From IMG/VR virus record IMGVR_UViG_3300030451_004057, positions 1 through 42,365 of that record: DNA of 42,365 nucleotides. The stretch is one strand, 5' to 3'. Of this stretch, positions 16,638 through 39,066 are shown in pieces (the first letter of the stretch is position 1; the number at the start of each line of letters is the position of its first letter). The stretch comes from a virus. Under the pieces are notes generated by a model that ran no database searches, was not told the DNA's origin, and saw nothing but the letters and a program-made list of their open reading frames with translations. The position numbers and the translations under genes are program-made.

Positions 16638-19600
16638 TATGAAGTTGAAGATATAAAGTTGTCTATAAATATATTTATTGTGTCGTTTTCTGGTATGCTA
16701 GATATTTCTAGTAAACCTCTAACTTTTACGTTTTGCTGATCCATTGCGGCTTCTATAAATCTTACGTTCACACTCGCGCTATTGTTTGTTTTGGAAAACT
16801 CAATATTTGTCGGCGCGGCTATATTAGCTGTTAAAGCAGGTGTAAAAGTTATTGCCGTTGCACTAGATATAGTACTAACAGTATGTGTTGTTCCACCAAC
16901 TGCAAATGTCATACCAGCTATTAAACCTGTTGTAGTGCTTAAATTTAAAGTTGTAACGCCAGAAGAGTGCGATCCTGATGTAGATATTACAGCAGAAGCG
17001 CTTGTTGCAACATCTGAGGCCAATGGTTGTCTACCACCGCTAGAAGTGATACTTAAACTTTTACCCGATCCTGGAGTGACAGTAAGTTCAAATTGTTTTG
17101 CAGTGCTATCATTTCTATTAAAAGCTAAAGAAACACCATCAGTTACTGATACGTTTTGACTTGTCGTAATGTTAACATTTTCTTTGTCAATAGCGGAAAC
17201 CGTTGTGTTGTAAGGAACTCCCGTGCCAGTTATAATCATACCAACCTCAATACCCGACGTAGCTTCATCAAGAGTTAACGCTGTAGTTGAAACACCAGCA
17301 GTTCCACCAGTTGCTAATATGACAGTAGGTCTTAAACTAGAACCTGTAGGCATTGTGGCTGTTGTTGTTACCATACTACCAAAATTGCTAGCTGTATGCG
17401 TAAACGTTCCTAAAGTTAACGTTGCTATACCATCTTGTATTATTTTTGCTTCACCGTGAGCGTTTGGAACATCAGCATGTAGTGTTGATTGTGGTGAACC
17501 AGCGGCTGCAATAATTACATCAAAACGTTTTTTACCGCTAGTGTTTGTTGGTAGCGTAACATTATGTATATTAAAACCTTCTGAACTTATTGTTTGCGTA
17601 CCACTGTTAGTTGAACTAGTTTGAAATACATTATCTGTAAAATTGTAATACCCATTACTAGTTGCAACTGAGTTGCTTTCTAAACCTTGCTGCTCTGTAA
17701 CCTGAATAGTATAACTAGCTCCAACCGTACCACTTACAGACACTGGTGTTGAGTTAGCTGTTGTAGGTGCTGAGCTTGTAAAATTAACAGATTGTATTTG
17801 GTTAGAAGGTAAAGTTGGTATAGCATTTAAAGTTGAGTTAATAACAAATGTGTGGTATAACTTACATAAATGTGATGGGTCAGGATTTAAAGGTGCGTTT
17901 GGTGGTGGTTCATAGTTTATATTTACTGTAAATCCAGTTAATCTACCATCACTATCATAAACAGCGGCATCAATGGTAGTTGAATAATAAGAAGAATAAT
18001 CAAAGCCAGGTTGAACTATATTGTTAGAACTAACGCTTAATCCACCAGAAGTATTTATAGGGCTATAGTAATAACCACTGCCAGCAGAGAAAGTAACTTT
18101 TACAACATGACTCCAACCGCCATCTAAAATAGTAGAGCTTTGATATTTTTGTTTAGTTGGAACAGTAGAACTTCCAGCCACCTCTTGTGTTCTAGATATT
18201 GTAGCTCCATAAGGACTCTGCGCTGGATACGATACAGTTTGATTAGAGTCGTAAGGATGTTTAACTCTAACACATAAATTCCTATTATTATTACTCATTG
18301 AAGTTTCTTCGTCAATATCAATATAATACGTTTTGTTTGACGTAGGAACTGTAAATTGAGGCATAGATATTCTAGCTTGAATAGTGTTTGAGGGATCACC
18401 AGCAATGCCAAGATCAGTAAACTGTACTTGAGTAATACTACCGTCAACATTTCCACCTTGCCATATACCAGAGTTTGAAGAAGTTTCTGATGCACCACCG
18501 ATTTTAAAATCTGTAGCCGAAATAGCGTGAGTAAAAGAACCGTTAAACAGTGGCGATATAATTAAGTCTATAGTTTGCGCGCCAATAGTAGCGCCTACGT
18601 TATAACTATTTGAAACAGAAGTTACGCTAAAAGATCTAATAGATGCGGTATCCCACGCACCACCAGAACCGTCTTCACCCTGATAGGTTGTTGAAGTGTT
18701 ATTAGCCCAAGTTATATCTACTTGACCAGTTTCTGGTTGACCTCCACCACCTCCAGGATTACTATGTACAAAGTCAGCATTACCTAATCCTTGAACAGAA
18801 AACTCTCTTTCATCTAAATTGCTTAGTGTAGTTGCATCACCCGCAATTAAACCAAACCATTTACCTTCTTTTTCTTTAAACTCTACTATATTACCAGTTT
18901 GTTTGTTTGTTATTATAGAGTCTACATACCAACCAGTCTTGGTGTCAAGATTGTAATATTCTCCATCGTTAAAAGTTACAGTGCTAGATCCACCAGAATT
19001 ATTATAAGCAGTTGCGTTAGAAGTTGTAAATTGAGTTATTCTAGCTTGCGTACCTTCGTAATTTAAAGCACCAAAGCTTTTTACTGCTTCTGGCATATCA
19101 TTAAACACAACTGTTACAGTTGAATCATACTGAACTCCGTAAAAATTATTTCTAGTTGTATTGTCGTGGTGTATGTATAGTTGTCCATTTTTAAACGTAT
19201 AATACTCATTATTTAAACTCAAGCCTTGTTCAGGTGTAAATGATTTTAAACTTACCCAACCTCTAGCTTTTTCACTATAAGTTACAGTTGTATATTCAGC
19301 GTTAAGTTGGCTTTGTATGTATCTTTTACCAATAGTTATGTTGTATTCTTTTTTCTTTTCATCATAACTACCTATAGCTATATCAGCATAATCTTTTAAT
19401 AAATCTGTAAAATAATCTTTCATACCTAAATCAGATATTGATCTAACACCTTCGCTACTCATAGCTAGTATTTGACCTCTAGTTATATCTGCAAAATATA
19501 ATTGTTGTGGAGTTGCCGTAAATGACTCTGGGTTTGTTGATATACCGTAGTCGCCAGAGTAAGGAGTTGCTTGACCAAGAACCATGTTATTTGAAGTTAC

Positions 19601-22600
19601 ATTGGCTTTTCCATCAGCGTTAAACAAAGCATCTTTGTTTGTTAATACTTTTAACACCTTGTCTTCGCATAAAGTAATTAAGTCTGTATTTCTTGTGTGT
19701 AGTTTTTGTATACTACCATAAACTGGATTTAAATCTTTAGTAATTTTTTCTGCAGCAATAAATTGATTAGTATTATTAATACCAGAGTTTGAATTATATA
19801 TTCCAGAAAATATTAGCCCGTGTTTTCTTCTTTCTTCTTTTACTGGCTCAGCTAAAACTGTCGATGCTTTAACTCCATTTGCTATTTTAGGTTGATTAAA
19901 ACTATCTCTTATTCTATCGGTTTCTACACCATTACCATAAGAAAAACAGTTAGACCAGTCTAACATATGGTATTGTCTAGTTAATTTTTCAAAACCAACA
20001 GAATCAGCGTCACCATGTAACGTTATTTGAGTACCACTAGTAACTTGGCCATCAACTTTACTACCAACCCAATAATGGTTTCTTTTGTAAAAAGTTATTG
20101 TTTGGTTATCTGCTATAGTTGTGTTAGCAGGTAAAGTTGGTGTAAACGTTATAGTATTAGAATTATTCCAAGAATATATAGTGTGTGTTGTTTTGTCTCC
20201 AGAGCTATTTATAGTTTGAAAAGTAGCACCTATAGGTATATATTCTTCGTTGTTATTACTGTTTAATTCAACAGGCATTAAACCACTTGCTTGGTAATAT
20301 ATGTCTAAATCTACAGATTCTCTTGGTTCAACCTCCCATATAGCTGGACTTTCTGTGAAACTATCTACATTTTCATTACCAGTAATTGGCTCTACTATTT
20401 CTATAATATCAAAATCTTCAAAATCATGTTTTAAAGCTCTAACACTATTGCCAGCTCCTGATATAGTACCTGTTATTGGGTTATAACCACTAACACCGCT
20501 ACCTATAGCAGGTTGTATGCCTATAGTCCATCTTTGTCGCATATTAAACCCTCTATACATATTTCTATGTGGTGAAAGGTTAAGGAAATTAGAACCATCT
20601 TGACAATTTCTTATACCCCAAGAACCAGAATAAGGTGATGTGTTTGTCTTGTATTCGTCTTTACCATGAGGCGTGTTTTGGTAATCATATTCAAATGTTG
20701 TATAAACTGTTTTGTCTGGATCCCTTCTAAATCTAAACTTAGTGCCAGCTGTAACAAGTCTCTGTATAAATTTCCAAGCATCGGCCCTTACGCCACTAGG
20801 ATGTTCCGATAACTTGTGCTTGTATGGTGGGCTCCAATTATTCCTACCTTCCATACCCGACCAAGACAAGTCCATGTAACATCTACTAGTAATACCAGTT
20901 CCTGTAAAGCCCCATATACCTCTTGATATTGCAGGTCCTGTCTGGTTATTGATATTAGCACTAGTTGCAGTTGCTTTTTTATTTGAAGTAAAGTTTTCAT
21001 TACTTTCATACCAAACAGTTTGAGCGTCTACAGAAAGGCCGTGAAAACCTTGCCCGTTACTTCCGTTTACTCTATCACCAGGAACGTGAGCAGGAACACC
21101 ACCATATCCACTCCAAGTATAAGCTGTTGCAGCATCTATAAAGAAAGAGTGTTTAGCAGCAACACCCCTCCAAAATCTTTTAGCTGATGTTGTGTGCCCG
21201 CTAAAAGCGTTTACGTTGTCGCCAAGAGCATAAACAGGATCAGCATGAATAAGGCCAGATGTAAGCCCAAACTTTTCACCACTACTACCTCCCCATTGAT
21301 AAGCCGCGGCTGGACTTCCAGTATAATGGTGTATAAGCTCTGTTGGATGATCTCTTCCAGAACGATTAAAACTTTCTGTTTTTAAAGCTTGTCTATAATC
21401 AGGTGTTATTGGACCTGTAGATGGACCTCCTAAATATCCATTATTATTTATATATCTTACTTGCCAACTATCTTTTATTAAATAATTAGTATCTTCAGAT
21501 TCTACTGTTAAAACATATTTAGCTAAACTTTCGTCTCTAAATATTTTTACAAAAAACCTACCGTCAAACTCAGGTTTATTTTCAATTTTATTTTCTGTTA
21601 ATCTTAATGCTAAGCCAGAAGGGGGATTTATACCGTTTGAAGAATCACCATCACTATCTGTAAACGCCATATCGTTTCCAAATGCACCAAAAATATTTAT
21701 AGTAATATAAGTATTGTCGTCAGAAAGATTCATAACCTCATACTCTTCAGAAGCATTGTCGCTTGTAAAAATTTTTACAAAAAGTTTATCTGGCGTTGAT
21801 ACTAATACTTTTTCACCAAAAGACTCTATAAACGCGCCTCTAGCTACAGTAACTTTATTAAAACCTGGTATTGGATAACCACCAGTTCCAGTGTTATTAC
21901 CAAAGTTTCCTTGAGCTGACGAACTACCAATAACGGTTGTATCACCATGCAACACTGTACCTAACACGACTCTTTGAGTTTTTATAAAATCTGGAGCTTC
22001 GTTTTCAATAGCAATAATTTTATATCTAGCTTTTTCGTAAACAGCCTCGTTAGTTCGATGAGATTTTTTTAATATTAAATAATCATCTTCTATAATTTTA
22101 TTTCTTTCGGCAGAAGGAAAAGATAGCCATATATTACCATCGCTTGCTGGATACCATCTGTCCATAGCCATGTTGTAATATTCAGAAGAAGTTTCTTTAA
22201 CATAAAAAGAAAAGTGTTTTGCCCAGGCTGGTGGATCACTTTGTAATCTACAATATATTCTATTTCTTTTTGTTGAGCAATTTTTTTCTACTTTTATAGA
22301 TGAATTTTTAGAAGTTAAAACTGGTGTTTCTCTACCATATTCATCACTAAAAACTACACCTACTTGATAAGTTCTCATTGATTTGATAGATGGCACAGCG
22401 TATTGTGAATTGACTACATTTTCTATATCTTGCGAATGCTTTGATACTTCCAATACTGGATCGTCAGCGTTATAATTTTGCAAATAATTTGCGTAAATTA
22501 ATCTATTAGCACTTATCTCTTGTGCTCTTGCTAGTCTCGGCACATTATCAAAAGGTCTAAGTAGTTGATTAGACGGTAAAACAGCGTGTATTACATCTGA

Positions 22601-24283
22601 CGTAACATCGTACTCTCCTCTATCATAAGCATTGTTTAATAAATCTGGCCAGCTAGGGTGCTCGTCTTTATACGTTAAAGACTTTACTGTGTAAACCGTT
22701 GGGTTAGTATCTTCTTTGTACAACAAGTCTATACCGACAACATCGTTTGCTACTAAAGTTTCTGGAAAATAATCCTTTAATTTTAAACTTCTTAATCTAT
22801 TTCTCATACCTAGATTATAACCTTTTCTAGGTTCATAATCAAAATCACCGGGCATAAAAGCCAGTTCTGAAAAAGGCGCAAAGCAAGAATATTCACCATC
22901 AGTATATTTATATCTATAAGAAAATCTTACAAATTTAAACTCAAACAAAGGATCTGCGTCTATCATTCTAACATAATAAGGTTCTGAAGACTGCTTAATA
23001 TCATTTGATATTGATAATATTCTAAGTGTAAAATTACTAGTTTGTAATGCGTTAGGATTTGTTACTTGTGAAGATGTAACAACTGCTCGCACCACAGAAT
23101 ACGCTTCTGAAAAAGAAGAATTAGACAACCCCGTATTGTCTGTTAATATTAAAATATCTCCAACTCTATAATCTATAGGATTATCAAACGTAGGTGTAAT
23201 GTCATCACCAGTTGTTTTATTAGAAAAGTCAAAAGTAAGCGATGTATACCTTAAATTAGTAGTGCCACTTGAAGTTACTCTAGGATTTTTTTGATCAGAC
23301 ATTTCCAACGTTAAAGGTTGTGTTGGAGACTTTTTGATTACTGTTATATTTTTTTCCGCAACGTAAGCCGCTTTTTTGCCAGTTCTATCTGTCACAACTT
23401 CTAAATCACCATCGTTATCACTATCAGAAACTAGTCTAGTATGAAAATCGTGAGTGTCACCTTCAAACGTAGCTGTTGTAGGTGTTCCAGCATTAAAACC
23501 GGCTATACCACCACCAACCAAATATTCAGTTCCACCTGTACCTGCAATAGATCTTTTTATACTTATTTTTTTAGGCTCAGTCGCATTATCTGTCCAGAAA
23601 ATAAAATCATCTAAAATATTTATTGCTGTTATTATATTGTTTCTGTCAAAGTTTAAAACTCTTGGCGATGTAAAAAACAGCGAATCACTACTGCTAACAC
23701 TTACGGATTCACTCAAAGTAATAGTCCATCTACTATTACCAGTATCATAAGCAATGTCAGTTACAGTAATATTATCTTCAATACTATAATTTGCATGAGT
23801 AAACTTCATACCTATTCTAACACCAGTTTTATTTATTGTTGCGCTACTGAGGTCTGGTATTTTTATAGTATTAGCGTTGCTTGTTGCTGCTGAAGCTGTA
23901 GTGGTTACATTATAAATATCTACAAAAACGTATTTAGCGCTTTTCTTTAAACTATCATACTCTATTATATAATCTCTCTGTATATCTAAAGCAGCACCTG
24001 TAGTATTGTTTATACCACCTGCTATCATATAATAAAGCTTATCCGTTTCAGGAAGAGCTATCGATCCTATGCATGTTGAAGTTGTTGGTATACTATAAGT
24101 GCCGTCTTCTATAGTATTTCTTAGAGTGTTGCCCAGTAGAGTTTGAGCAGAACCAACGTTTGAGTCGTCTGAAGTAGATATTTGTATATTTAAAGCATCT
24201 CTATACTGGCCGTTTGGAACTAACCTTTCGTCAAGGTCTTTGTTCATTTTGGCCTGAGAGAAGTTACGTTTTAACTCCGGCAT
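16637..24283 (-). CDS. Very large tail protein (stabilisation/fibre type, 2548 aa)
   Basis: The N-terminus (FSQAKMNKDLDERLVPNGQY) is a familiar start of large tail 'stabilisation' proteins in crAss-like and marine phages, often related at fold level to P22 gp10. Residues ~200-260 and ~1480-1680 contain short strand repeats (NILDDFIFWTDN, LITLCEDKVLKVLTN, YNITIGKRY) consistent with a beta-propeller-like body. The last ~850 residues are Thr/Ser/Gly-rich beta modules typical of receptor-binding regions. A short unit of the form G-x-x-x-G-M-x-F/I appears near residues 158, 2351 and 2456. The gene sits directly after the ring proteins, so it probably forms much of the tail hub and fibres and meets the host surface. 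The role is inferred from position and recalled patterns. Confidence 0.85.
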   Translation of the reverse strand: MPELKRNFSQAKMNKDLDERLVPNGQYRDALNIQISTSDDSNVGSAQTLLGNTLRNTIEDGTYSIPTTSTCIGSIALPETDKLYYMIAGGINNTTGAALDIQRDYIIEYDSLKKSAKYVFVDIYNVTTTASAATSNANTIKIPDLSSATINKTGVRIGMKFTHANYSIEDNITVTDIAYDTGNSRWTITLSESVSVSSSDSLFFTSPRVLNFDRNNIITAINILDDFIFWTDNATEPKKISIKRSIAGTGGTEYLVGGGIAGFNAGTPTTATFEGDTHDFHTRLVSDSDNDGDLEVVTDRTGKKAAYVAEKNITVIKKSPTQPLTLEMSDQKNPRVTSSGTTNLRYTSLTFDFSNKTTGDDITPTFDNPIDYRVGDILILTDNTGLSNSSFSEAYSVVRAVVTSSQVTNPNALQTSNFTLRILSISNDIKQSSEPYYVRMIDADPLFEFKFVRFSYRYKYTDGEYSCFAPFSELAFMPGDFDYEPRKGYNLGMRNRLRSLKLKDYFPETLVANDVVGIDLLYKEDTNPTVYTVKSLTYKDEHPSWPDLLNNAYDRGEYDVTSDVIHAVLPSNQLLRPFDNVPRLARAQEISANRLIYANYLQNYNADDPVLEVSKHSQDIENVVNSQYAVPSIKSMRTYQVGVVFSDEYGRETPVLTSKNSSIKVEKNCSTKRNRIYCRLQSDPPAWAKHFSFYVKETSSEYYNMAMDRWYPASDGNIWLSFPSAERNKIIEDDYLILKKSHRTNEAVYEKARYKIIAIENEAPDFIKTQRVVLGTVLHGDTTVIGSSSAQGNFGNNTGTGGYPIPGFNKVTVARGAFIESFGEKVLVSTPDKLFVKIFTSDNASEEYEVMNLSDDNTYITINIFGAFGNDMAFTDSDGDSSNGINPPSGLALRLTENKIENKPEFDGRFFVKIFRDESLAKYVLTVESEDTNYLIKDSWQVRYINNNGYLGGPSTGPITPDYRQALKTESFNRSGRDHPTELIHHYTGSPAAAYQWGGSSGEKFGLTSGLIHADPVYALGDNVNAFSGHTTSAKRFWRGVAAKHSFFIDAATAYTWSGYGGVPAHVPGDRVNGSNGQGFHGLSVDAQTVWYESNENFTSNKKATATSANINNQTGPAISRGIWGFTGTGITSRCYMDLSWSGMEGRNNWSPPYKHKLSEHPSGVRADAWKFIQRLVTAGTKFRFRRDPDKTVYTTFEYDYQNTPHGKDEYKTNTSPYSGSWGIRNCQDGSNFLNLSPHRNMYRGFNMRQRWTIGIQPAIGSGVSGYNPITGTISGAGNSVRALKHDFEDFDIIEIVEPITGNENVDSFTESPAIWEVEPRESVDLDIYYQASGLMPVELNSNNNEEYIPIGATFQTINSSGDKTTHTIYSWNNSNTITFTPTLPANTTIADNQTITFYKRNHYWVGSKVDGQVTSGTQITLHGDADSVGFEKLTRQYHMLDWSNCFSYGNGVETDRIRDSFNQPKIANGVKASTVLAEPVKEERRKHGLIFSGIYNSNSGINNTNQFIAAEKITKDLNPVYGSIQKLHTRNTDLITLCEDKVLKVLTNKDALFNADGKANVTSNNMVLGQATPYSGDYGISTNPESFTATPQQLYFADITRGQILAMSSEGVRSISDLGMKDYFTDLLKDYADIAIGSYDEKKKEYNITIGKRYIQSQLNAEYTTVTYSEKARGWVSLKSFTPEQGLSLNNEYYTFKNGQLYIHHDNTTRNNFYGVQYDSTVTVVFNDMPEAVKSFGALNYEGTQARITQFTTSNATAYNNSGGSSTVTFNDGEYYNLDTKTGWYVDSIITNKQTGNIVEFKEKEGKWFGLIAGDATTLSNLDEREFSVQGLGNADFVHSNPGGGGGQPETGQVDITWANNTSTTYQGEDGSGGAWDTASIRSFSVTSVSNSYNVGATIGAQTIDLIISPLFNGSFTHAISATDFKIGGASETSSNSGIWQGGNVDGSITQVQFTDLGIAGDPSNTIQARISMPQFTVPTSNKTYYIDIDEETSMSNNNRNLCVRVKHPYDSNQTVSYPAQSPYGATISRTQEVAGSSTVPTKQKYQSSTILDGGWSHVVKVTFSAGSGYYYSPINTSGGLSVSSNNIVQPGFDYSSYYSTTIDAAVYDSDGRLTGFTVNINYEPPPNAPLNPDPSHLCKLYHTFVINSTLNAIPTLPSNQIQSVNFTSSAPTTANSTPVSVSGTVGASYTIQVTEQQGLESNSVATSNGYYNFTDNVFQTSSTNSGTQTISSEGFNIHNVTLPTNTSGKKRFDVIIAAAGSPQSTLHADVPNAHGEAKIIQDGIATLTLGTFTHTASNFGSMVTTTATMPTGSSLRPTVILATGGTAGVSTTALTLDEATSGIEVGMIITGTGVPYNTTVSAIDKENVNITTSQNVSVTDGVSLAFNRNDSTAKQFELTVTPGSGKSLSITSSGGRQPLASDVATSASAVISTSGSHSSGVTTLNLSTTTGLIAGMTFAVGGTTHTVSTISSATAITFTPALTANIAAPTNIEFSKTNNSASVNVRFIEAAMDQQNVKVRGLLEISSIPENDTINIFIDNFISSTS

Positions 24284-26789: not shown

Positions 26790-28310
26790 CTAGTAAGTAC
26801 CTGTTGCTTCAATTAGCATAAAGTTGTTAGCACCTTGAGTAACTAAACATCTTTCTGATAAGAAATGCATTTCCATCGCATCTAAATCAGAAGTAGCAGC
26901 TCCAACTGAACCAGTAGTCCAAGTTTTGAAACGTCTGTCTTCCATATTAGAAGCTCTGTATCTTACGTGTAAGAAAGGTCTTTTTAGGTTTTTACCTAAA
27001 GACTGATCGTATACAGTAGTAGTACCAGCAGGAATAAATATTCCTCTAATGTGATTATCTACATCTTTGATACCACCTCTTGTAGCTTTGTCATTTAAGT
27101 ATTTCCAGTCAGACTTGTAGAAGTCATAAGAACCTCTTCTGAAACCAGAGAAACCTAAATTTAACGCCATATCTTCAGAGTTATCAAATACACCGAAAGA
27201 TAAACCACCAGTTGAGTGTGGGTTTAATCCACCAAGCATATCATCAATAGTTAACATAAGATCTCTATCAGCGAATACCATGTACTCTTCAATAGCACCT
27301 TGCTTGTCAAACTCTTTTAATATAGTGTCAAAATCACCTAAAGCTTGTACTGATGTTGCAGCAGCTAATAAACCATCGTAAGCATTACCTCTTGCTTTTA
27401 CAGCTGCAAATAAACCTTCAGAACCAGTTAGTGTATTAGATAAATGAGAAGTTACAGTGTTAGTAGCACTTTCATGCTCAACCATAACCATTTCTAAATA
27501 ATCAGTAAATCTAGCTCTAGTATCACCAGCAGCTTTTAAGTACCATAAGTAACCATTTTGCCCGTCTTCACCAGTAACTTCAACCCAACCAATTTGAGAT
27601 GCATCAGATCCTGAAACCTCATACATATCTTTGATTATAACAGGTTTGTTAGTAAAAGACTTGAACTGTGGCTTATTAGCAGTAGTTCTACCAGTAGTAC
27701 CTTTCGCGTATTCAGAACCATAAACCATTAAACCACAAGTAACGTTACTATTAGAAGCTGAAACGTTGTCAATAGTGTCACCACCATCAGTTAAAGGTTG
27801 TACAGTACACGAAGCGTGAGCTACAGCAGGTGAACCAACGTTAGTAGTACCAACAGCTGTTACATAACCTTTTACAGTTTTGTCAGCGTCAGATAAAATA
27901 ACTAAATCACCAATTCTTACAGCTACATCGGTAACAGCAGAAGCTCCAGCAGCTGAAGCTGTACCATTAACAAAGTTTCCGTCAATATCTTTAACGAATA
28001 TAAAGTTATAAGTAGCAACAGGTGATGATCTCTGTATATTACCTTGGTATGATATGTGTAGTCTTCCTTGTTCTGACCAGACTACTTGATCAGCGGACAT
28101 TGCTTCTTCAGCTCCGACCATTTCTAAAAATCCACCGATAGTTCTGTTTCCAAAAACTTCAGCTTCTTTTTCCATTAAATCTGGTAGGTATTGTTGCGCC
28201 CATCCAGCAGTTGCTGTTGCAGTGAAATCAATATAGTTAGTTGTTAACGCTTGTTGATTCATTGCCGGCACGCTATTTAACGACCCACCAGCCGTCATTG
28301 TAATTGCCAT
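26790..28310 (-). CDS. Major capsid protein
   Basis: The 506-residue protein has the layout of an HK97-type capsid in crAss-like phages: a short N-terminus, then helices with WAQQYLPDLMEKEAEVFGN, a segment MSADQVVWSEQGRLH, a long beta/loop region and a C-terminal FLHVRYRASNMEDRRFKTW. Gene order supports it: TerL, portal, scaffold candidate, capsid. Codons are relatively GC-richer and more regular than in neighbours, consistent with high expression, and a strong terminator follows. It stops at TAG with a TAA two codons later, so read-through would add only two residues. Confidence 0.92.
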   Translation of the reverse strand: MAITMTAGGSLNSVPAMNQQALTTNYIDFTATATAGWAQQYLPDLMEKEAEVFGNRTIGGFLEMVGAEEAMSADQVVWSEQGRLHISYQGNIQRSSPVATYNFIFVKDIDGNFVNGTASAAGASAVTDVAVRIGDLVILSDADKTVKGYVTAVGTTNVGSPAVAHASCTVQPLTDGGDTIDNVSASNSNVTCGLMVYGSEYAKGTTGRTTANKPQFKSFTNKPVIIKDMYEVSGSDASQIGWVEVTGEDGQNGYLWYLKAAGDTRARFTDYLEMVMVEHESATNTVTSHLSNTLTGSEGLFAAVKARGNAYDGLLAAATSVQALGDFDTILKEFDKQGAIEEYMVFADRDLMLTIDDMLGGLNPHSTGGLSFGVFDNSEDMALNLGFSGFRRGSYDFYKSDWKYLNDKATRGGIKDVDNHIRGIFIPAGTTTVYDQSLGKNLKRPFLHVRYRASNMEDRRFKTWTTGSVGAATSDLDAMEMHFLSERCLVTQGANNFMLIEATGTY

Positions 28311-31899: not shown

Positions 31900-34116
31900 T
31901 TATTTTATTATTTTTGACACGAAACCTTGGTTATTGTATCGTGATATGTTAATGTTTAATTTTTGTTTTTCTATAATAGGGTTTGGTCTGTATAAATTTC
32001 TATTACAAGCCATTACTGCCAAACCACTACTTATAGTTGCGTCATATTTTGTTCTTTTAGTAATATCAAATCTACTCCAATCGTTTAAAGTTCTATTAAA
32101 ATACATATTACCATATGTATCGTCATTTAAATTACCAACGTGCTCTTGTATATACATTTCAATTGCAGCTGCATGAGCTTGCTTAATATCTTCGCTTGAG
32201 TTTGGTATACCACCCACTTCTTTTTCAGCAACAGACAGTTTGTTCCATAATTTATCAGGTCTGTTCATACTAAACCCTCTGTAGCCTCTACGTCTTAAAT
32301 AGTATAATAATCTTGGTTTGTTGTTTTCTGCAAGCATTGGCATGCCATAAAATACTAAAGCCATAAGCACATCTTCAAAAAATATATCAGCTGTCTGCGG
32401 TCTAGCTAAATATTCTAAAAAAAATTGGTTTGGCGGCGCGTCTTCCATGCTAAACTTAGTTAAACCATGCAAAGCTCCTTTAGAGCCTTTACCATCTACA
32501 GTTCCTGATATATCATATGAGTCACAACCAAAAGCGCCCATATGCTCGTTACCAGGGTATTTTATACCGTTTTTTATTATTATATTGTTTTGCAAGTGAA
32601 CATTTGGTGTCCAAGTTATATTAAATCTACCTTTTGGATCTGGATAAAATATTACTTGCGTGTCTTTTATACCGTTAACCCATTGAAAATTACCTTTGCT
32701 AAAACCAATAGACCTATTCATCTCTTCATTGTAATCTATTTGTTCGTATATTTTAACTAAATTAAATATACTATTTTTAGCCTCATCTCTAAATGCATGC
32801 TCTTCAGTTCTTGGAAACTGTCTGTAAAATTCGTTTAAAGCATCTTGATCACTTTTTAAACCTTCAGCCTCATTGTTCCAATGATCAATAATACCATAAT
32901 CTATTAATTCTCCGTCTGGTCCGTATACATCATTATCTGGATTATTAAAGACTGGATTTCCATATTCGTCAATAAATCCTTCGTAGTTCCACTCCATTGG
33001 GATAAAGAGAGAATATAAACCAGACTTTGTCTGTCCATTACGATTTCGTTGAGTGACGTCTGAATCATTGTACAATTTTTTAAAGTTATCTCCTCCTTTG
33101 TCTAACGCATTTGATGTTGAGCCCATCATGCATTTACCTATAATCCTACTACCTAATCGTAAACAAGTTTTTGTAACCCGCCAATTATTTAATATATTAT
33201 CAGGCCTTTCCCATTTACCACTTTCATCATGTACTAGTAATGCTAGTTTTTCACCGTCATAACTATTGTCACCAGTGTTTTTCCAGTCTATTGTTGTATC
33301 TAAACCTTTTAGTTCTTCTAATTTTTCATTAGATGTTATTTTTTTACGAGTAAATTTACTCGCAGGTACTCTATATGCTAATTCTGTTTTTGGCCTATCC
33401 ATACCGTCTTGTATAGGTTTAAAGAAAAAAGGATAATTTACTGATATTGGAACCACCTTGTCAGTAAACATTTTTTTAGCATCTGCACCTGTTTTAGAGA
33501 GTATACCATATCTACTATCACTTGATATTGTAGCTAAATTAACTGTTTCCGCTGAAGACATGAAAGAAAATCCAGACCTACGATTTTTAAGGTAGCACAT
33601 CCCGTAACATCTTTTGTCGGCTTTACAAGCTTCCCAGAATATAAAAAATAATCTATTGGCCTCTCTAAAATCAGGCGCACCTACGTCTATTTTGCTCCAT
33701 TGTAGATACATATAGTGACTCCCAGTTACATAAGTTGCTTTACCATTATTATTAAACCAAAGCCCTTGCTCTCTACGTTTAAATTCTTCATCTATATAAT
33801 CATACCATTGATTTTTTGATTCTTCAGGGTATGATCTCCAGTCAAATATATTTTTTAACTTAGATAATTCTTTTGGATATTCTAATTTTTGCCACTTTTT
33901 TTGTTTGCTAGAGAGCAATTGCACTGGCTTTTGTGGCAATGCAATTCGCAAATTTTGTATCTCAAGTATTTCACCGATTTTACCAGTTTTTGATATAACA
34001 ATAATATCGTGTTCTTTATTATATCCATATTGCCATTTTTTACCTTTATTCATACGAATTATAGTCGTACGTTTAACAGGCTCAATTATTTTAAATAATG
34101 TTTGTTCGTAACTCAT
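31900..34116 (-). CDS. terL: Terminase large subunit
   Basis: The 738-residue protein has an ATPase part and a nuclease part. Near 175-190 the P-loop position reads YLKNRRSGFSFMSS: a basic adenine/phosphate-loop substitute without the classical GxxxxGK[ST]. Walker B is LALLVHDESGKW (D297, E298). The RNase H-like nuclease begins with GCDSYD (near 532), and a later conserved D lies in KYDATISSG near the end. A segment GKATYVTGSHYMYLQWSKID (near 126-144) is characteristic of crAss-like and relative terminases. It cuts and translocates phage DNA into the procapsid. The start overlaps the 92-residue upstream gene by four bases. Confidence 0.92.
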   Translation of the reverse strand: MSYEQTLFKIIEPVKRTTIIRMNKGKKWQYGYNKEHDIIVISKTGKIGEILEIQNLRIALPQKPVQLLSSKQKKWQKLEYPKELSKLKNIFDWRSYPEESKNQWYDYIDEEFKRREQGLWFNNNGKATYVTGSHYMYLQWSKIDVGAPDFREANRLFFIFWEACKADKRCYGMCYLKNRRSGFSFMSSAETVNLATISSDSRYGILSKTGADAKKMFTDKVVPISVNYPFFFKPIQDGMDRPKTELAYRVPASKFTRKKITSNEKLEELKGLDTTIDWKNTGDNSYDGEKLALLVHDESGKWERPDNILNNWRVTKTCLRLGSRIIGKCMMGSTSNALDKGGDNFKKLYNDSDVTQRNRNGQTKSGLYSLFIPMEWNYEGFIDEYGNPVFNNPDNDVYGPDGELIDYGIIDHWNNEAEGLKSDQDALNEFYRQFPRTEEHAFRDEAKNSIFNLVKIYEQIDYNEEMNRSIGFSKGNFQWVNGIKDTQVIFYPDPKGRFNITWTPNVHLQNNIIIKNGIKYPGNEHMGAFGCDSYDISGTVDGKGSKGALHGLTKFSMEDAPPNQFFLEYLARPQTADIFFEDVLMALVFYGMPMLAENNKPRLLYYLRRRGYRGFSMNRPDKLWNKLSVAEKEVGGIPNSSEDIKQAHAAAIEMYIQEHVGNLNDDTYGNMYFNRTLNDWSRFDITKRTKYDATISSGLAVMACNRNLYRPNPIIEKQKLNINISRYNNQGFVSKIIK

Positions 34117-34391
34117 TTTGATCTACCTTCAGCAAAACCTTTAAAAACTCTTTGTTTCTTTTCTTCTGGCTCTTTACCTTCAAGTATATTTTCCTCTTCT
34201 TGTATTCTGTTTAATATTTCAAAAGCGTCAAATATTGCTAGTTTTTTTGTAGCCGCAGCGTTCTTTAATCTATCAGCACTAACATCATCTTCTGTGTTTG
34301 TTATAATTTTTTCTTTAGCAACATTGATTAATTCTTCAACTGCCCTGTGCCCAGCTTGTATTATAAGTTTCTTGGTTTCTTTGATATTCAT
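34113..34391 (-). CDS. Terminase small subunit candidate
   Basis: The 92-residue product is helical and charged, with DRLKNAAATKKLAIFDAFEI in the middle. It overlaps TerL by four bases (ATGA), the usual place of TerS. No helix-turn-helix is plain from the sequence. The start at 34391 lies 56 bases inside the end of the preceding gene, a long overlap for this array, and no later in-frame ATG keeps a sensible protein. TerS is inferred from position and size. Confidence 0.65.
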   Translation of the reverse strand: MNIKETKKLIIQAGHRAVEELINVAKEKIITNTEDDVSADRLKNAAATKKLAIFDAFEILNRIQEEENILEGKEPEEKKQRVFKGFAEGRSK

Positions 34392-34926
34392 ATTTCATTG
34401 TAATAAATTTATTCATTATTCTATAAAGCCTTTCACCATCTACAACAAATTCATATTCATCGTTTGGACAAAAACCAATAACATCACCTTCTTTTAAATA
34501 ATTACTGCTATATTTAACCATTCCCGTTAAAGGTTTTTCTGGATTTAAACTATATTTCCAGTCGTTTTTTAGCGGCTTTACAAAACAATAGCCTTCTAAA
34601 GGCTTCCACTTGTCAAGTCTTTTGTAAGCATATACTTGATCTTGTTGTACAACGTAAGTAGTTTCATTTATAAAACTTCTACTATTTTTTTCTCTACCTT
34701 TAACATCGTACCATCTACGAAATATATTGTGATTAACTATTACAGTGTCTCCCACTTGTATTTCTGTTTTATAGGCTAAGGGTATAGATTTAACTATACC
34801 CTGCCTATTTATAAACTCATGCTTTGATATATCTGTATTTAGTATTAATTCTTTATTACCTACTTCTTTAGTGTTATTGTATCTAGCACCTTTAGGTTCT
34901 ATTATAAAGTAAAATGGACTTTTCAT
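34336..34926 (-). CDS. Tandem GroES-like (co-chaperonin fold) protein
   Basis: The 196-residue protein shows two GroES-like beta-barrel patterns. Domain 1 (about 1-103) has GIVKSIPLAYKTEIQVGDTV, then a long insertion and DQVYAYK. Domain 2 (about 110-180) has GYCFVKPL, LTGMVKYSSNYLKEGDVIGF and ERLYRIMNKFITM, matching the GroES order of strand, mobile-loop region, xGxV...KxGDxVxF and final strand. Ordinary GroES has one domain of about 95 residues. A separate canonical GroES lies at 36819-37076 and GroEL at 37504-39066, so this may be a second cap for the chaperonin or a structural protein built on the same fold. Paired-domain co-chaperonins are rare. Assignment is by eye. Confidence 0.6.
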   Translation of the reverse strand: MKSPFYFIIEPKGARYNNTKEVGNKELILNTDISKHEFINRQGIVKSIPLAYKTEIQVGDTVIVNHNIFRRWYDVKGREKNSRSFINETTYVVQQDQVYAYKRLDKWKPLEGYCFVKPLKNDWKYSLNPEKPLTGMVKYSSNYLKEGDVIGFCPNDEYEFVVDGERLYRIMNKFITMKYEYQRNQETYNTSWAQGS

Positions 34927-35144
34927 TAATACTCTAAATTATACTCAACAGATATTGCCATGTTTTTATTAAAGTCTTTCCAAGGTATTACAGTTCTATT
35001 TTTCTTGATATATATAGAAAATTTATCTTTTTCTTCTATTATGTCGCAAATAGTATGACCACCGTAAACTTCTTGACCAACAGCATAATGCATGGCATCG
35101 TTTTTATAATCCTTACCTACACTAATCTTTCTTATTATCTGCAT
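34926..35144 (-). CDS. Small conserved beta-rich protein (72 aa)
   Basis: The 72-residue product has IRKISVGKDYKNDAMHYAVG at its N-terminus, then GGHTICDII and a C-terminal VIPWKDFNKNM with an EYNLEY end. I recall this pattern from small proteins of marine phages but know no function. It shares one base with the following gene (34926) and overlaps the preceding coiled-coil gene by 23 bases, supporting genuine translation. Confidence 0.7.
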   Translation of the reverse strand: MQIIRKISVGKDYKNDAMHYAVGQEVYGGHTICDIIEEKDKFSIYIKKNRTVIPWKDFNKNMAISVEYNLEY

Positions 35145-35397
35145 TTTCAGGAGGTGTTATAGTACCGTCAGTAATATTAATGTTTACAGTACCATATTCT
35201 TTTTCAAGTTTTTCTTGAATAACTTTAAGCTCATCTTGAACACCAGCATGAGAGTGGAGTAAAGCGTGCTTATTAGTTTCTAATCTACCTATTTCTAAAC
35301 GTAATTCATTTATTTTAGAGACTACCATTTGAACTTCTTTTAAATGTTCCTCACTAATTTTTTCAGGTTTTAAATTTACTAAATTTTCTTCTGTCAT
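35122..35397 (-). CDS. Small coiled-coil protein (91 aa)
   Basis: The 91-residue product is a helix with heptad Leu/Ile spacing (about 15-70: VSKINELRLEIGRLE, then QDELKVIQEKLEKEYG) and an Asp/Pro-rich tail. There is no signal, membrane or enzyme motif. It lies just downstream of the holin-like gene and overlaps the 72-residue gene by 23 bases. It could be an assembly or scaffold-type protein, but its role is not shown. Confidence 0.75.
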   Translation of the reverse strand: MTEENLVNLKPEKISEEHLKEVQMVVSKINELRLEIGRLETNKHALLHSHAGVQDELKVIQEKLEKEYGTVNINITDGTITPPENADNKKD

Positions 35398-35415
35398 TTT
35401 ATTTTATTTTAATTA

Positions 35416-35802
35416 TTATTTTTTTACTTTTTCTAAGCTACGGCCGCCAAAATAAGCACCTATAACTGTAATAAGAACTAATTGCAATAAATCAGTCCAT
35501 TTGTCTTGCACTTGAAACGTTATAAAACCAGCATCAATAAATACTAGTAATACAGTGCTAATTACTAAAAACACAAGAACTAAAGGTCTTATGTTCTTAG
35601 ATAACCATGAGTCTGAGTTCATATCCATCTTCCAACGCTCAGTTACTTGCTTTTGCATTTCAGCCTCATAACCCATTATCATATCTTTAATTTTAGCTTC
35701 TGCAGCTAATTTCTCTTCTTTTGTTGTAGTTAAGTTATCTAATACTCCGCCTACATTTTTTACTAGCTCGGTTGCACCGGCTGAAAATATTTTACTTAGC
35801 AT
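35416..35802 (-). CDS. Holin-like membrane protein (3TM-type)
   Basis: The 128-residue product has an amphipathic helical N-terminus with KEEKLAAEAKIKDMIMGYE. The segment DSWLSKNIRPLVLVFLVIST and the following hydrophobic stretches form two to three membrane passes (about 70-120), with a GAYFGGRSLEK end. This arrangement matches the family annotated as '3TM holins for gene-transfer release', which opens the inner membrane at lysis. The gene shares one base with the following Lys-rich gene (35802). It supports a lysis block, though no separate endolysin is recognised in the window. Confidence 0.82.
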   Translation of the reverse strand: MLSKIFSAGATELVKNVGGVLDNLTTTKEEKLAAEAKIKDMIMGYEAEMQKQVTERWKMDMNSDSWLSKNIRPLVLVFLVISTVLLVFIDAGFITFQVQDKWTDLLQLVLITVIGAYFGGRSLEKVKK

Positions 35803-36017
35803 TATAATTTATTTTTACCTCTTAATTCGTTTAATTGTTTTTTCAACTTAGTTATAGTTTTACCACCTTCCATAGCTGAAACAACTTCGTTTTCAATATC
35901 TGACTTAACAAACTCTATTCTATCTTCTAAATCATTTATTTTTTCCTGTTTATTATCTCCTTTGTATTTATGTGTATCTGGGTTTTCTTTCATAAACCCT
36001 TTCATTTTAAATGCCAT
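35802..36017 (-). CDS. Small Lys/Glu-rich protein with FKM motif (71 aa)
   Basis: The 71-residue product begins MAFKMKGFMKENPD and then becomes a charged helix (INDLEDRIEFVKSDIENEVV, ending KLKKQLNELRGKNKL), likely a coiled coil. The FKM start resembles the N-termini of other small late proteins here. It shares one base with each neighbouring gene (36017 and 35802), so it is a member of the coupled run. Function is unknown. Confidence 0.7.
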   Translation of the reverse strand: MAFKMKGFMKENPDTHKYKGDNKQEKINDLEDRIEFVKSDIENEVVSAMEGGKTITKLKKQLNELRGKNKL

Positions 36018-36382
36018 TATGTTATTTTTTTTTCGTTATTATAAGCTAGTTTTTCCCAAGGCAAGCTTTTACTGCCTTCTCTATGCCACTTACCATTATA
36101 TTTAACTTTACCGTTTTTCCTATGATACGTGTTACTCCCATGCCTTATATAGTCATCGCCATATGATAACTCTCCATTATTCATCCTTTTCATATGGTCA
36201 TATTCATGAGCTATAACCTCTTTATATAGTTTACTACCAGGCTTTACTTTATCATTAACGTGTATAACGTTATTTTTAGTAGCTAAACCTAAAACTCCAT
36301 TATCTAGTTTTGATCTTTTTAAAGTAAAACCTTTATTATTATCATTAATAGATTTTCTACCTGTACCTAGTTTAAATCCCAT
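36017..36382 (-). CDS. Small zincin-type metallopeptidase-like protein
   Basis: The 121-residue product has VIAHEYDHMKRMNNGE, an HExxH site at residues 59-63 (H59, E60, H63) followed by acidic residues that could supply the third ligand. The surrounding pattern of KPGS, then a helix with HEYDH, resembles a minimal zincin. It opens with MGFKLGTGRKS, close to the FKM-type starts nearby. Placed beside a holin-like gene it could take part in lysis or in processing a head protein. Which is not shown, and no peptidoglycan-binding motif is visible. Confidence 0.7.
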   Translation of the reverse strand: MGFKLGTGRKSINDNNKGFTLKRSKLDNGVLGLATKNNVIHVNDKVKPGSKLYKEVIAHEYDHMKRMNNGELSYGDDYIRHGSNTYHRKNGKVKYNGKWHREGSKSLPWEKLAYNNEKKIT

Positions 36383-36822
36383 TATCTGTCTTTATCTTTT
36401 ATCATATCATCTATAGCTTTATTATAAACTTTATCTGTGTATGACTTGTTATTAAAAAATTTACTTCTTTCTGACGTTGGTAAGTCTTCTTCTCCTAATA
36501 ATATCCTATATATTCTACTTATAAGTTGACTACACCTAAACGATGTTTTAAATATAGAGTATTTAATTGTGGTTCTATTACGGTGTCTCCAAGCCTCTAT
36601 CCAACCGTCACGCCTTAAACGCTCCCATCTGTTTTTATCCCATGAATAAGTATACACTCCATTTACAAAATCATTACGAGTAAATCTACCTTTACAGTCT
36701 AAATATATTAACAGCTCTAGATCAGCGTCGGTTATGTTGTAAGTTTTACAAGCCCATTTTCTTACTAATCTATAATACTTAAAAAGGTTTAATTCTCTAA
36801 TATCTTGAGCTGTTAGTATCAT
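36382..36822 (-). CDS. Winged-helix-like DNA-binding candidate
   Basis: The 146-residue product has a helical N-terminus, then LELLIYLDCKGRFTRNDF (helix-turn-helix-like) and SWDKNRWERLRRDGWIEAWR followed by RTTIKYSIF, which could be the recognition helix and wing of a MarR-like winged helix. The C-terminal half is helical and basic. I recall closely similar proteins in marine phages but do not know a studied one. It shares one base with the zincin gene and overlaps the groES gene by four. A transcription-control role is plausible but not shown. Confidence 0.65.
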   Translation of the reverse strand: MILTAQDIRELNLFKYYRLVRKWACKTYNITDADLELLIYLDCKGRFTRNDFVNGVYTYSWDKNRWERLRRDGWIEAWRHRNRTTIKYSIFKTSFRCSQLISRIYRILLGEEDLPTSERSKFFNNKSYTDKVYNKAIDDMIKDKDR

Positions 36823-37076
36823 TCTACTATTACGACGTCCATATCTTTAATTACATGGTAAAGCGTATCTTTTAAACTTAAACCATGACCAGCATGCTTG
36901 TCATAGTAAATAACGTCTTTTTCTTTTATATGCTCGACAAGATTTCCAACTGAAACTACAGTACCTTTTATATATCTATTGTCTTCGTCAATTTTTTCGG
37001 TCATTATAAGACCTCCAACTTTTTTGTGTTCTATTTTGTGTTTCTTTATTATAAGAAACCTGTTTAATGCTTTCAT
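36819..37076 (-). CDS. groS: GroES co-chaperonin
   Basis: The 85-residue protein follows the GroES layout: N-terminal strand MKALNRFLIIKK, mobile-loop region ending in GGLIM (residues 21-25, equivalent to the GroEL-contacting GGIVL), GTVVSVGN (38-45), EKDVIYYDKHAGHGL and a final DMDVVIVE strand. The length is close to bacterial GroES (about 95). It caps GroEL and closes the folding chamber. GroEL is encoded about 430 bases upstream in the same transcript, separated only by the oxygenase gene, so a working phage pair is likely. It overlaps the winged-helix gene by four bases. Confidence 0.85.
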   Translation of the reverse strand: MKALNRFLIIKKHKIEHKKVGGLIMTEKIDEDNRYIKGTVVSVGNLVEHIKEKDVIYYDKHAGHGLSLKDTLYHVIKDMDVVIVE

Positions 37077-37082
37077 ATTAAA

Positions 37083-37517
37083 TTAAATAAAAATTAAAAA
37101 TACTTGTCTATCACCTGTTGTGGGATCAACTTTATGTTCTACATCAGAACTGTGTGCGCATAAATCACCTATACTTCTTTCAACTTCTACAACTTTACCA
37201 TCTTCTTTATAATATGTTTTACCTCCTTCATAATCTGCTTTTAATAAAATAGTACCGCCAAGCTCACACCACATCATGTGATTGTTTGAACCAGTATCAA
37301 CGTGCCAGTCATGACCATCTTTACCTGTTTGTTCTATTTTAAAATAAGACTCATCTTTAACAGTAAAACTAAAATCTATTTTTAATTTATTTATTATTTT
37401 ATCAACTACTTTGTTTTTTTCTTTTAAAACATAGTATTTGTTACCAACTGTTAAAGTACTATATAAATGAGAAATATCTTCTTTGTTTAAAAATGCTTTA
37501 TACTTACTTCTCATCAA
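37083..37517 (-). CDS. 2-oxoglutarate/Fe(II)-dependent oxygenase (prolyl-4-hydroxylase type)
   Basis: The 144-residue protein has the jelly-roll metal triad: HVD at residues 72-74 (H72, D74) and a distal H128 (VEHKVD), with R137 (GDRQVFLIFI) for 2-oxoglutarate. GGTILLKADYEGGKTYY between them is typical of the family's strand pair. Such enzymes hydroxylate proteins, nucleic acids or small molecules using Fe(II), O2 and 2-oxoglutarate, and are common in marine phages. Here the gene overlaps the end of groEL by 14 bases and precedes groES by six, so it is made together with the chaperonin. Its substrate is unknown. Confidence 0.85.
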   Translation of the reverse strand: MMRSKYKAFLNKEDISHLYSTLTVGNKYYVLKEKNKVVDKIINKLKIDFSFTVKDESYFKIEQTGKDGHDWHVDTGSNNHMMWCELGGTILLKADYEGGKTYYKEDGKVVEVERSIGDLCAHSSDVEHKVDPTTGDRQVFLIFI

Positions 37518-39066
37518 CTCTTATATTTGAAATTACACAATCAGCTGATATAATAGTTGAAACTACACTAACAGCATTTTTCAACGCAGATTTAGTTACA
37601 AGTACCGGGTCTATAATACCTGTGCTTATCATATCAACATCTTGACCGGTAACAACATTAATACCGTTACCTTCGTGCAACGGGGTGTAATCATCTATAC
37701 CAGCATTGCTAAGTATTGTTTGATATGGTGATTTTATAGAGTTTAGCAATATAGTTTCACCAATATTATCAGATTTTATTTTTTGCGAAGCATTTAACAA
37801 AGCTACACCACCACCAGGTACAATACCTTCTTTTAAAGCAGCTTTAGTTGCATATATAGCGTCTTCAACTCTATCTTTTTTCTCTTTTAGCTCTACTTTA
37901 GAATTACCACCTACTTTAATTATTCCAACACTACCTGATAGCATAGATAATCTTTGCTCTAACTTTTTCTTAATATAACCATTTTTTTCATTAGAAATAA
38001 GTTTTGACACTTGTTCGATTCGTTCTTGTAAGTTTTCAACATTGTCCGTAGTTGTTATAACTGTTGTATCATTGTCTGTTACCGCGTATTTAGCTTCTCC
38101 CAAACAGCTTACATCTATAAGATCTAAATCGTCACCCATAATTTCATCAATTACTCTAGCCCCAGTTAGTATGGCTAAATCTTCGCATGTATCTTTTTTA
38201 GTAGGACCAAAGCCTGGTAAGTCAATAATATTTATTTTTATATTACCTTTAGCTTTATTCATTAATAACGCCGCTTTTACCTGGTCAGCAACAGGTGATA
38301 CGATGAGTATTGGCCTGTTTTTCTTTATAACAAACTCTAAAAGCGTCTGTATTTTCCTAACATTAGGTATTTCTGACATACATATCAAAACAAATGGGTT
38401 TTCTAACTCACAAACTTGTTTTTCTTTGTTAGTTATATAATATGGAGACTGCAAACCGTTGTTTAACTGTACTCCGTCAACAATTTTTACGTGTGTTTTG
38501 TCGGTTTCAGAACTTTCCATCAAAACAACGCCATTTTTACCGACTTTTGTGTAAGCTTCTGCAATGATTTTGCCTAAACTAGCGTCGTTGTTACAAGAGA
38601 TAGCAGAAACACTGCTTAACATGTCGCTTTTTACCTCTATTTTCACCTCGTCAAGGTATTTATTAACCTTTTCAAGACCAGAGTTTATGCCGTTTTTAAT
38701 ATCTCTTACAGAAACACCAGTTTTTTGTGCTTCTGTAGCCTCTTTTAATAAAGATTGTGCTAAAACAGTAGCGGTGGTAGTACCGTCACCCGCTTCTTTT
38801 ACTGTATTTTGCGCAGCTTCTTTAATTAAAGTGGCGCCTATGTTTTCAACCGGGTCAAATAAGACTACGCTTTGCGCAACGGTTACACCATCTTTTGTAA
38901 TGACCGGTTTGCCGCGTGCATCCTCGTATATTACGCACTTTCCTGAAGCGCCTAAGGTTGATTTAACGGCTTCAGCTAGCTTGTCTACGCCAGCTATTAT
39001 CTTGTTTTTAGCTTGATCGCCAAAGTTTAAGTCTTTGACGATCTCACTAGGTAAGTTATATTCCAT
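37504..39066 (-). CDS. groL: GroEL chaperonin (phage-encoded)
   Basis: The 520-residue protein aligns by eye along all of bacterial GroEL. Nucleotide-binding elements are ITKDGVTVA (D59) and GDGTTTAT (93-100). The ATPase aspartate is in RVEDAIYATKAALKEG (D402), followed by GIVPGGGVAL and GIIDPVLVTKSAL. The apical domain is complete, with SPYYITNKEKQ, ELENPFVLI and a second helix near 235-272, where GroES and substrates bind. It lacks the usual Gly-Gly-Met tail and ends VDEK. At 520 residues it is slightly shorter than the usual ~545. The catalytic residues are intact, so it is probably active. Confidence 0.95.
   Translation of the reverse strand: MEYNLPSEIVKDLNFGDQAKNKIIAGVDKLAEAVKSTLGASGKCVIYEDARGKPVITKDGVTVAQSVVLFDPVENIGATLIKEAAQNTVKEAGDGTTTATVLAQSLLKEATEAQKTGVSVRDIKNGINSGLEKVNKYLDEVKIEVKSDMLSSVSAISCNNDASLGKIIAEAYTKVGKNGVVLMESSETDKTHVKIVDGVQLNNGLQSPYYITNKEKQVCELENPFVLICMSEIPNVRKIQTLLEFVIKKNRPILIVSPVADQVKAALLMNKAKGNIKINIIDLPGFGPTKKDTCEDLAILTGARVIDEIMGDDLDLIDVSCLGEAKYAVTDNDTTVITTTDNVENLQERIEQVSKLISNEKNGYIKKKLEQRLSMLSGSVGIIKVGGNSKVELKEKKDRVEDAIYATKAALKEGIVPGGGVALLNASQKIKSDNIGETILLNSIKSPYQTILSNAGIDDYTPLHEGNGINVVTGQDVDMISTGIIDPVLVTKSALKNAVSVVSTIISADCVISNIRVDEK

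Follow-up and report, generated by a model that had tools for sequence, protein, structure and literature searches.

Bacteriophage T4 encodes a co-chaperonin, gp31, which lacks roof loops, works with the GroEL of its host and is required for the capsid protein gp23, whose mass of ~56 kDa lies slightly above the capacity of GroEL-GroES; its mobile loop is also longer than that of GroES (22 versus 16 residues) (available text of PMC6318259). Phages EL and AR9 encode GroEL relatives of their own. The EL chaperonin shows no interaction with E. coli GroES, although the available part of that report leaves a distant GroES in the EL genome possible (PMC7185714), and the AR9 chaperonin is described, in partial source text, as single-ring. 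In chloroplasts the two tandem Cpn10-like domains of Cpn20 occur beside a single-domain Cpn10, and the native lid of Arabidopsis and Chlamydomonas is most probably a seven-fold symmetric ring of mixed composition (PMC5780408, in the text available). What makes one phage encode a complete chaperonin system and another only a lid is an open question. Here we describe the virus record IMGVR_UViG_3300030451_004057 (42,365 bases, taken whole and hereafter called the window). Within positions 34336-39066 the window encodes a GroEL, a GroES (Cpn10) and a two-domain (tandem) protein, and we consider it likely that these constitute a dedicated phage folding system comprising its own type I GroEL ring, a Cpn10 lid that lacks the roof, and a tandem co-chaperonin resembling Cpn20. 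The three genes had been proposed in an earlier annotation made from the letters alone (the sequence-only reading), and each is an intact open reading frame (ORF) on the minus strand at the coordinates given there. Like EL and AR9 the virus has a GroEL relative, but here a GroES gene accompanies it; in contrast to T4, which relies on host GroEL, the window has both its own GroEL and a tandem co-chaperonin.

The GroEL (groEL, 37504-39066, minus strand; 520 residues, 55.8 kDa) is a type I chaperonin that matches PF00118 (E 7e-58; 197 bits against a cut-off of 34.3) and phrog_5725 (E 2e-135). It scores above the cut-offs of the broad NCBIfam subfamily models PRK00013 and PRK12849 but below that of the GroEL equivalog TIGR02348 (464.3 versus 582.1 bits), and is thus a diverged protein rather than the standard bacterial equivalog. 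In an alignment of 106 viral rows (105 unique ORFs of at least 480 residues plus the window, which is entered twice; E. coli numbering throughout), K51, D52, D87, T89, T90, D398 and D495 are invariant, bearing out the earlier claim that the ATPase aspartates (D52, D87, D398 and D495) are kept.

The companion claim, that the GroES-binding apical domain is kept, holds for the domain itself but not for its lid and substrate contacts, where L234Q, L259K, V264M and Y199L are found. The I-V-L tripeptide of GroES contacts GroEL residues L234, L237 and V264 (PMC3514286), and a wider groove set is given in PMC7289027, each as stated in the available text. For bacterial GroELs a single-protein pattern scan yielded nothing, and the comparison set is the best 80 of 592 loci from an alignment-based scan. 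In this set Y199, Y203, F204, E257 and V263 occur in all 80 proteins, L237 in 79, L259 in 79 (the remaining one has I), V264 in 74 and L234 in 70 (the other 10 have V, I or M), positions 234 and 259 being hydrophobic throughout. At positions 199, 203, 204, 234, 237, 257, 259, 263 and 264 the window GroEL has L, Y, Y, Q, L, Q, K, L and M; L237 and Y203 are kept and Y199L, V263L, V264M and F204Y are conservative, while L234Q and L259K place polar residues in the groove. Across the 106 viral rows Q234 is present in 88, M264 in 85, K259 in 82, Q257 in 80, H203 in 70 and L199 in 68, with L237 retained in 103. The MW202828-like clade has a groove set different from that of the window clade (E234 with A263 and A264; V259 in the MW202828 type), and four other phage GroELs (phiKT1024, immuto, a 735-kb phage and DAC16) mostly retain the bacterial groove residues. 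The GGM tail present in 75 of the 80 bacterial proteins is found in none of the 106 viral rows. Judged from these aligned residues, the lid and substrate groove of the lineage GroEL is rewritten relative to the bacterial type.

The GroES (groES, 36819-37076, minus strand; 85 residues, about 9.8 kDa) belongs to PF00166 (E 3e-9; 37.2 bits against a cut-off of 21.1) and phrog_3188 (E 5e-12). A fold search with its monomer model (predicted local distance difference test, pLDDT, 88.8) returns Cpn10 chains (best E 7e-6), with T4 gp31 at rank 32 (E 5e-3), and a profile search places the Cpn20 subunit of 7ekq nearest to it among solved structures (E 1e-12). The mobile loop with its hydrophobic tripeptide is kept (VGGLIM in the window, containing GGLIM; AGLIM in 34 and GGLIL in 29 of 116 rows) and, unlike that of gp31, is not lengthened. 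The sequence-only reading had called this protein a canonical GroES, which agrees with its family, fold and mobile loop but not with its roof: the span of the roof β-hairpin, 19 residues in E. coli (44-62), comprises 10 residues in the window and in 115 of the 116 rows overall, and 13 in the other. The lack of a roof hints at a chamber open at the top and suited to large clients, the proposal made for gp31, and by that analogy the 85-residue protein probably forms an open-topped lid.

The tandem protein (34336-34926, minus strand; 196 residues, about 23.3 kDa) had likewise been read as GroES-like with two domains, a description upheld by its match to phrog_13932 'co-chaperonin GroES' (E 7e-18) and by an AlphaFold2 model in which two Cpn10-like domains are predicted head to tail (89 sequences; pLDDT 81.8, predicted template modelling score 0.71, the placement of one domain against the other carrying no error estimate). 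The top Foldseek match of this model in the PDB, and the sole one below 0.001, is chloroplast Cpn20 (7ekq_R, E 5e-5); T4 gp31 is also listed, and is thereby among the fold-search matches of both lid models. A second aligner superimposes 154 residues on 7ekq_R across both domains (residues 1-180; Z 10.0, root-mean-square deviation 3.6, identity 14-16%), and the C-domain alone fits GroES with a Z of about 9 at 2 Å. Searching BFVD with the model gave the cpn10 of phage phi18:3 as second match. In the tandem proteins of Baltivirus, Bacelvirus and Callevirus the C-terminal half scores above the PF00166 cut-off (24-34 versus 21.1 bits), and sub-cut-off matches to this family occur in 4 of the 27 records surveyed below. 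The N-domain carries a mobile-loop-like segment of the type RYNN...ELIL (ELIL or ELIV in the window clade), positions 27-29 being hydrophobic in 182 of 198 rows.

Several results weigh against a co-chaperonin role for this protein. It has no match in Pfam or NCBIfam and no credible sequence match in the PDB (best E 0.15, to an unrelated enzyme); the alignment of its N-domain loop with the GroES mobile loop, obtained with the phage GroES profile, is weak (E 4e-4, probability 36); and the C-domain loop is short, without hydrophobic residues, and does not constitute a mobile loop. Both Cpn20 domains have a GG-V-L-L loop, whereas here a mobile-loop-like segment is confined to the N-domain. Because of this single loop, the low identity, the viral origin and the position of the gene beside that of the terminase large subunit (terL), we name the protein Cpn20-like and not Cpn20; it is probably a second lid.

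The virus itself is, on the evidence of its TerL sequence, related to Elemovirus and Callevirus, i.e. to known Flavobacteriia phages. The window TerL shares 62% identity with its counterpart in MW202828 (Manatee Spring, 60.9 kb) and 44% with that of Flavobacterium phage elemo; it matches 87 phage records, 86 of which carry Flavobacterium, Cellulophaga, Tenacibaculum or Maribacter in their names. GroEL, a stand-alone Cpn10 and the tandem gene occur together in MW202828, Elemovirus, Callevirus (phi38:1 and Calle) and Maribacter phage Panino, the tandem gene lying at or just upstream of terL in each. These viruses resemble the window in all three proteins and in TerL, but their GroELs are only 35-41% identical to that of the window, the groove residues differ from the Q/K/M set of the window clade, and the location of GroEL varies, being on the opposite strand in elemo and far from terL in Callevirus. 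The full set had been presented by the sequence-only reading as unusual; within this group it is not, since these relatives already carry it and GroEL homologues related to those of Cellulophaga phages are reported in 36 environmental genomes of 'group 2', to which phi38:1 also belongs (available text of PMC5332604). The elemoA and phi38:1 records annotate GroEL together with two GroES/Cpn10 genes. In the portions of the literature available, 'chaperonin cpn10' is counted among the core genes of the Pervagoviridae (PMC8776804), Panino is stated to carry GroEL and GroES (PMC11590407), and phi38:1 GroEL appears among the methylated phage proteins of infected Cellulophaga, which amounts to protein-level expression of a relative (PMC13288928). 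The trio is therefore not new, being present in deposited records, with its GroEL in print for this group.

A search for co-occurrence, as the sequence-only reading had proposed, confirms the association. Among 27 records (the window plus every record of 36 kb or more, 26 in number, within 159 listed loci), GroEL is present in 19, the stand-alone Cpn10 in the identical 19 and never apart from it, and the tandem protein in all 27. None of the eight GroEL-less records shows a clean absence, because the DNA upstream of the tandem gene (0.4-5.5 kb in six, 6.4 and 9.1 kb in two) is shorter than the distance of up to about 15 kb at which GroEL lies upstream of the tandem gene in related records. A local scan, whose locus counts come from the best 80 per scan and make the size of the lineage a lower bound, found at least 105 loci with all three genes and 93 distinct GroES-plus-tandem sequence pairs; the trio is on one strand in 104 of these 105 loci, the exception being elemo. 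By the local profile GroES is present in 161 of 169 GroEL loci, with groEL and groES at most 60 nucleotides apart in 125 of the 161, and the remaining eight are E. coli, six Callevirus loci and locus L092. As this profile misses the GroES of Callevirus and of E. coli its GroES counts are undercounts, and PF00166 does find a Cpn10 in the six Callevirus loci. A tblastn search of the phage collection for the stand-alone GroES gave no match at E 0.01, a method too weak for this protein, since profile searches do find relatives. The three-gene association is thus recurrent near terL in one virus lineage, and the earlier description of a phage GroEL/GroES pair with a second GroES-fold protein near terL, portal and structural genes applies to many related viruses.

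The constancy of the tandem gene beside terL, with which it shares a strand in all 232 loci holding both and which it precedes by no more than 400 nucleotides in 194, raises the alternative that the protein is no lid at all and acts as a head-assembly or packaging factor, re-using the GroES barrel with the terminase or prohead and leaving Cpn10 alone to serve the phage GroEL. Its retention where a phage GroEL is absent and the domain without a mobile loop would also fit such a role. We nevertheless regard it as unlikely, given the hydrophobic loop tripeptide kept in those 182 of 198 rows and a best structural match that is a co-chaperonin across both domains; a weaker point is that the record note of the phi18:3 tandem protein cites similarity only, whereas that of the portal cites tandem mass spectrometry (MS/MS) proteomics.

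If the tandem protein is a second lid, its partner is less readily assigned. The Baltivirus/Bacelvirus phages phi19:3, phi18:3 and phi46:3 (Pachyviridae) carry the tandem gene and a stand-alone Cpn10 with no GroEL in the whole record. Their co-chaperonins (loci L009, L011 and L010, respectively) have 85 and 200 residues and are a natural counterpart of the window set. Tenacibaculum phage Gundel, also of the Pachyviridae, has none of the three genes, and phi4:1, which lies outside the TerL relatives examined, has one Cpn10 only. Because relatives without GroEL keep the tandem protein, it may act on host GroEL, on both GroELs or in mixture with Cpn10. A gp31-type hijacker of host GroEL, with the phage GroEL and Cpn10 as a separate private pair, is possible though somewhat doubtful, and overlaps with the dedicated system we prefer, which leaves the tandem partner open. 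It would account for the three GroEL-less records, for the N-domain loop of phi18:3 (ESGLEL), which is close to and reads as an ordinary GroES mobile loop, and for the difference between the groove of the phage GroEL and that of bacterial GroELs. It sits less well with the change of this loop to the ELIL/ELIV type in the window clade and with the retention of the tandem gene in five of the five named GroEL-bearing relatives searched. A mixed, chloroplast-like lid is a speculative form of the third option and, in our estimate, quite improbable: three tandem proteins would join one roofless Cpn10 in an open-topped ring of seven domains, with four loops that bind GroEL. This ring would cap a GroEL that refuses host GroES and give an asymmetric chamber for large capsid subunits, and such a lid would have arisen independently of plastids.

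The sequence-only reading had named recent host contamination or misassembly of the two genes as a refutation of its proposal, and we weighed these together with recent capture from a host. GroEL is a universal bacterial gene. G+C content, which ranges from 0.29 to 0.37 along the window, is slightly higher over groEL (0.33-0.36) than in the adjoining stretch (0.29-0.30). The window GroEL is 39% identical to that of E. coli, 35% to that of MW202828 (35-41% across MW202828, elemoA, Calle_1 and Panino) and at most 42% to any bacterial GroEL among the best 80 of 592 loci. In a quick, unrooted IQ-TREE phylogeny of 104 sequences a branch (support 98) sets all 19 lineage GroELs apart from 81 bacterial and four other phage GroELs, and the window falls in a virus-only clade of 11 rows (support 100) on a stem of 1.71 changes per site, a placement that speaks against recent host capture. 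Within this tree it is uncertain how the window clade, Callevirus, Panino, elemoA and the MW202828 clade are related to one another; the branches of elemoA and Panino, which meet, are long and unreliable, and several viral rows, the window included, have an unusual amino-acid composition. With an equivalent gene order seen in many contigs, contamination or misassembly fares no better, and we reject the host-derived explanations, contradicted as they are by the tree, as having a negligible probability.

The case for a single, coherent system is tempered by further observations. The unrooted tree does not demonstrate one capture for all lineage GroELs, and the window GroEL is no nearer to MW202828 than to E. 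coli although the two TerL proteins are 62% identical, which implies either fast divergence of GroEL or its replacement within the lineage. At locus L092, GroEL and the tandem gene are accompanied by no GroES that the local profile recognizes. The tandem protein need not partner the phage GroEL, since Baltivirus and Bacelvirus keep it without one. Partial distance correlations given TerL among GroEL, GroES and the tandem protein (r 0.37, 0.48 and 0.57; 55 loci) are matched by those of a portal control against the same three proteins (0.44, 0.56 and 0.66; 40 loci with portal). Co-evolution of the three proteins beyond shared ancestry was accordingly rejected as evidence, and because the portal did as well the test could not separate the options for the tandem partner. 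The identity of the client, finally, is a guess from size and position.

In the dedicated system we favor, ATP-driven rings of the phage GroEL would capture newly made phage proteins through the lineage-specific groove, and a lid would dock through its mobile loop and close the chamber, within which the client would fold. The open-topped lid may let the chamber accept a capsid subunit of ~55 kDa, as gp31 does for T4 gp23; the phage Cpn10 would be tuned to the phage GroEL; and the tandem protein may serve as a second lid for the phage GroEL, the host GroEL or both, probably as a double subunit within a ring of seven domains. A dedicated folding system for capsid or giant proteins had been suggested from the sequence, and the first of these clients is consistent with our results. 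By its size and gene neighborhood the likeliest is a virion structural protein and capsid candidate of 506 residues and 54.6 kDa (26790-28310, minus strand; phrog_13704). The 3042-residue protein, in contrast, is the largest of the window at 340 kDa and is rejected as a client, being far too large for a cage that strains at ~56 kDa (available text of PMC6318259).

What appears to be new, in that the literature searched yielded no description, is the rewritten groove of GroEL, the roofless Cpn10 and the Cpn20-like reading of the tandem phage protein; coverage for the last was partial and is not proof of absence, and the search for elemo together with GroEL found nothing. New also are the loss of the GGM tail from GroEL and the retention of both co-chaperonins by three Pachyviridae phages that have no GroEL. 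The lineage thus holds both states, GroEL with two lids in Elemovirus and Callevirus and two lids only in Baltivirus and Bacelvirus, and because cultured members exist the question of why phages differ in this way is testable. With its rebuilt groove and roofless lid the system gives rise to a concrete hypothesis, that of a private folding cage insulated from the host. A tandem lid would place the Cpn20 arrangement in a virus, where the capping of a seven-fold ring by even-numbered lids could be studied.

Every ORF of more than 150 residues in the window is on the minus strand and most overlap or abut their neighbors. The order leftward from 40104 is a 226-residue protein, a 97-residue protein, GroEL, a 144-residue ORF, GroES, six small genes (one holin-like), the tandem protein, a 92-residue protein, TerL, portal and structural genes that include the phrog_13704 protein. 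Placement of the chaperonin genes in a late structural transcript, as previously suggested, fits this orientation and overlap, the promoter and terminator scan consisting of consensus matching only. The 92-residue protein (34113-34391, minus strand), a conserved neighbor, overlaps the tandem gene by 56 nucleotides and separates it from terL (31900-34116, minus strand; phrog_6681), which served as the genomic anchor.

Among the small genes, all on the minus strand, the 144-residue ORF between groEL and groES (37083-37517) has weak 2-oxoglutarate (2OG)-Fe(II) dioxygenase matches (phrog_61, E 2e-5; NCBIfam, E 4e-4, below cut-off) and is present in 21 loci of the local scan. The 146-residue protein directly after groES (36382-36822) has no family match above any cut-off and occurs in 105 of 105 trio loci and 176 loci overall, a constancy equal to that of the chaperonins. 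A 121-residue protein (36017-36382), found in 131 loci, has a weak eCIS_core match (E 0.065) and a HEYDH motif, which we take to resemble the HExxH of zinc metalloproteases. The 128-residue protein at 35416-35802 matches GTA_holin_3TM below the cut-off (E 6e-4) and is likely a holin lying within the chaperonin-terL stretch. Further along the same strand are a 397-residue protein (13919-15112) with EF-hand matches below cut-off (best E 6e-4) and two giant ORFs of 3042 (4778-13906) and 2548 residues (16637-24283), the former having no Pfam match over cut-off. Large 'structural protein' genes in elemoA and phi38:1 sit at the far end of the corresponding cluster.

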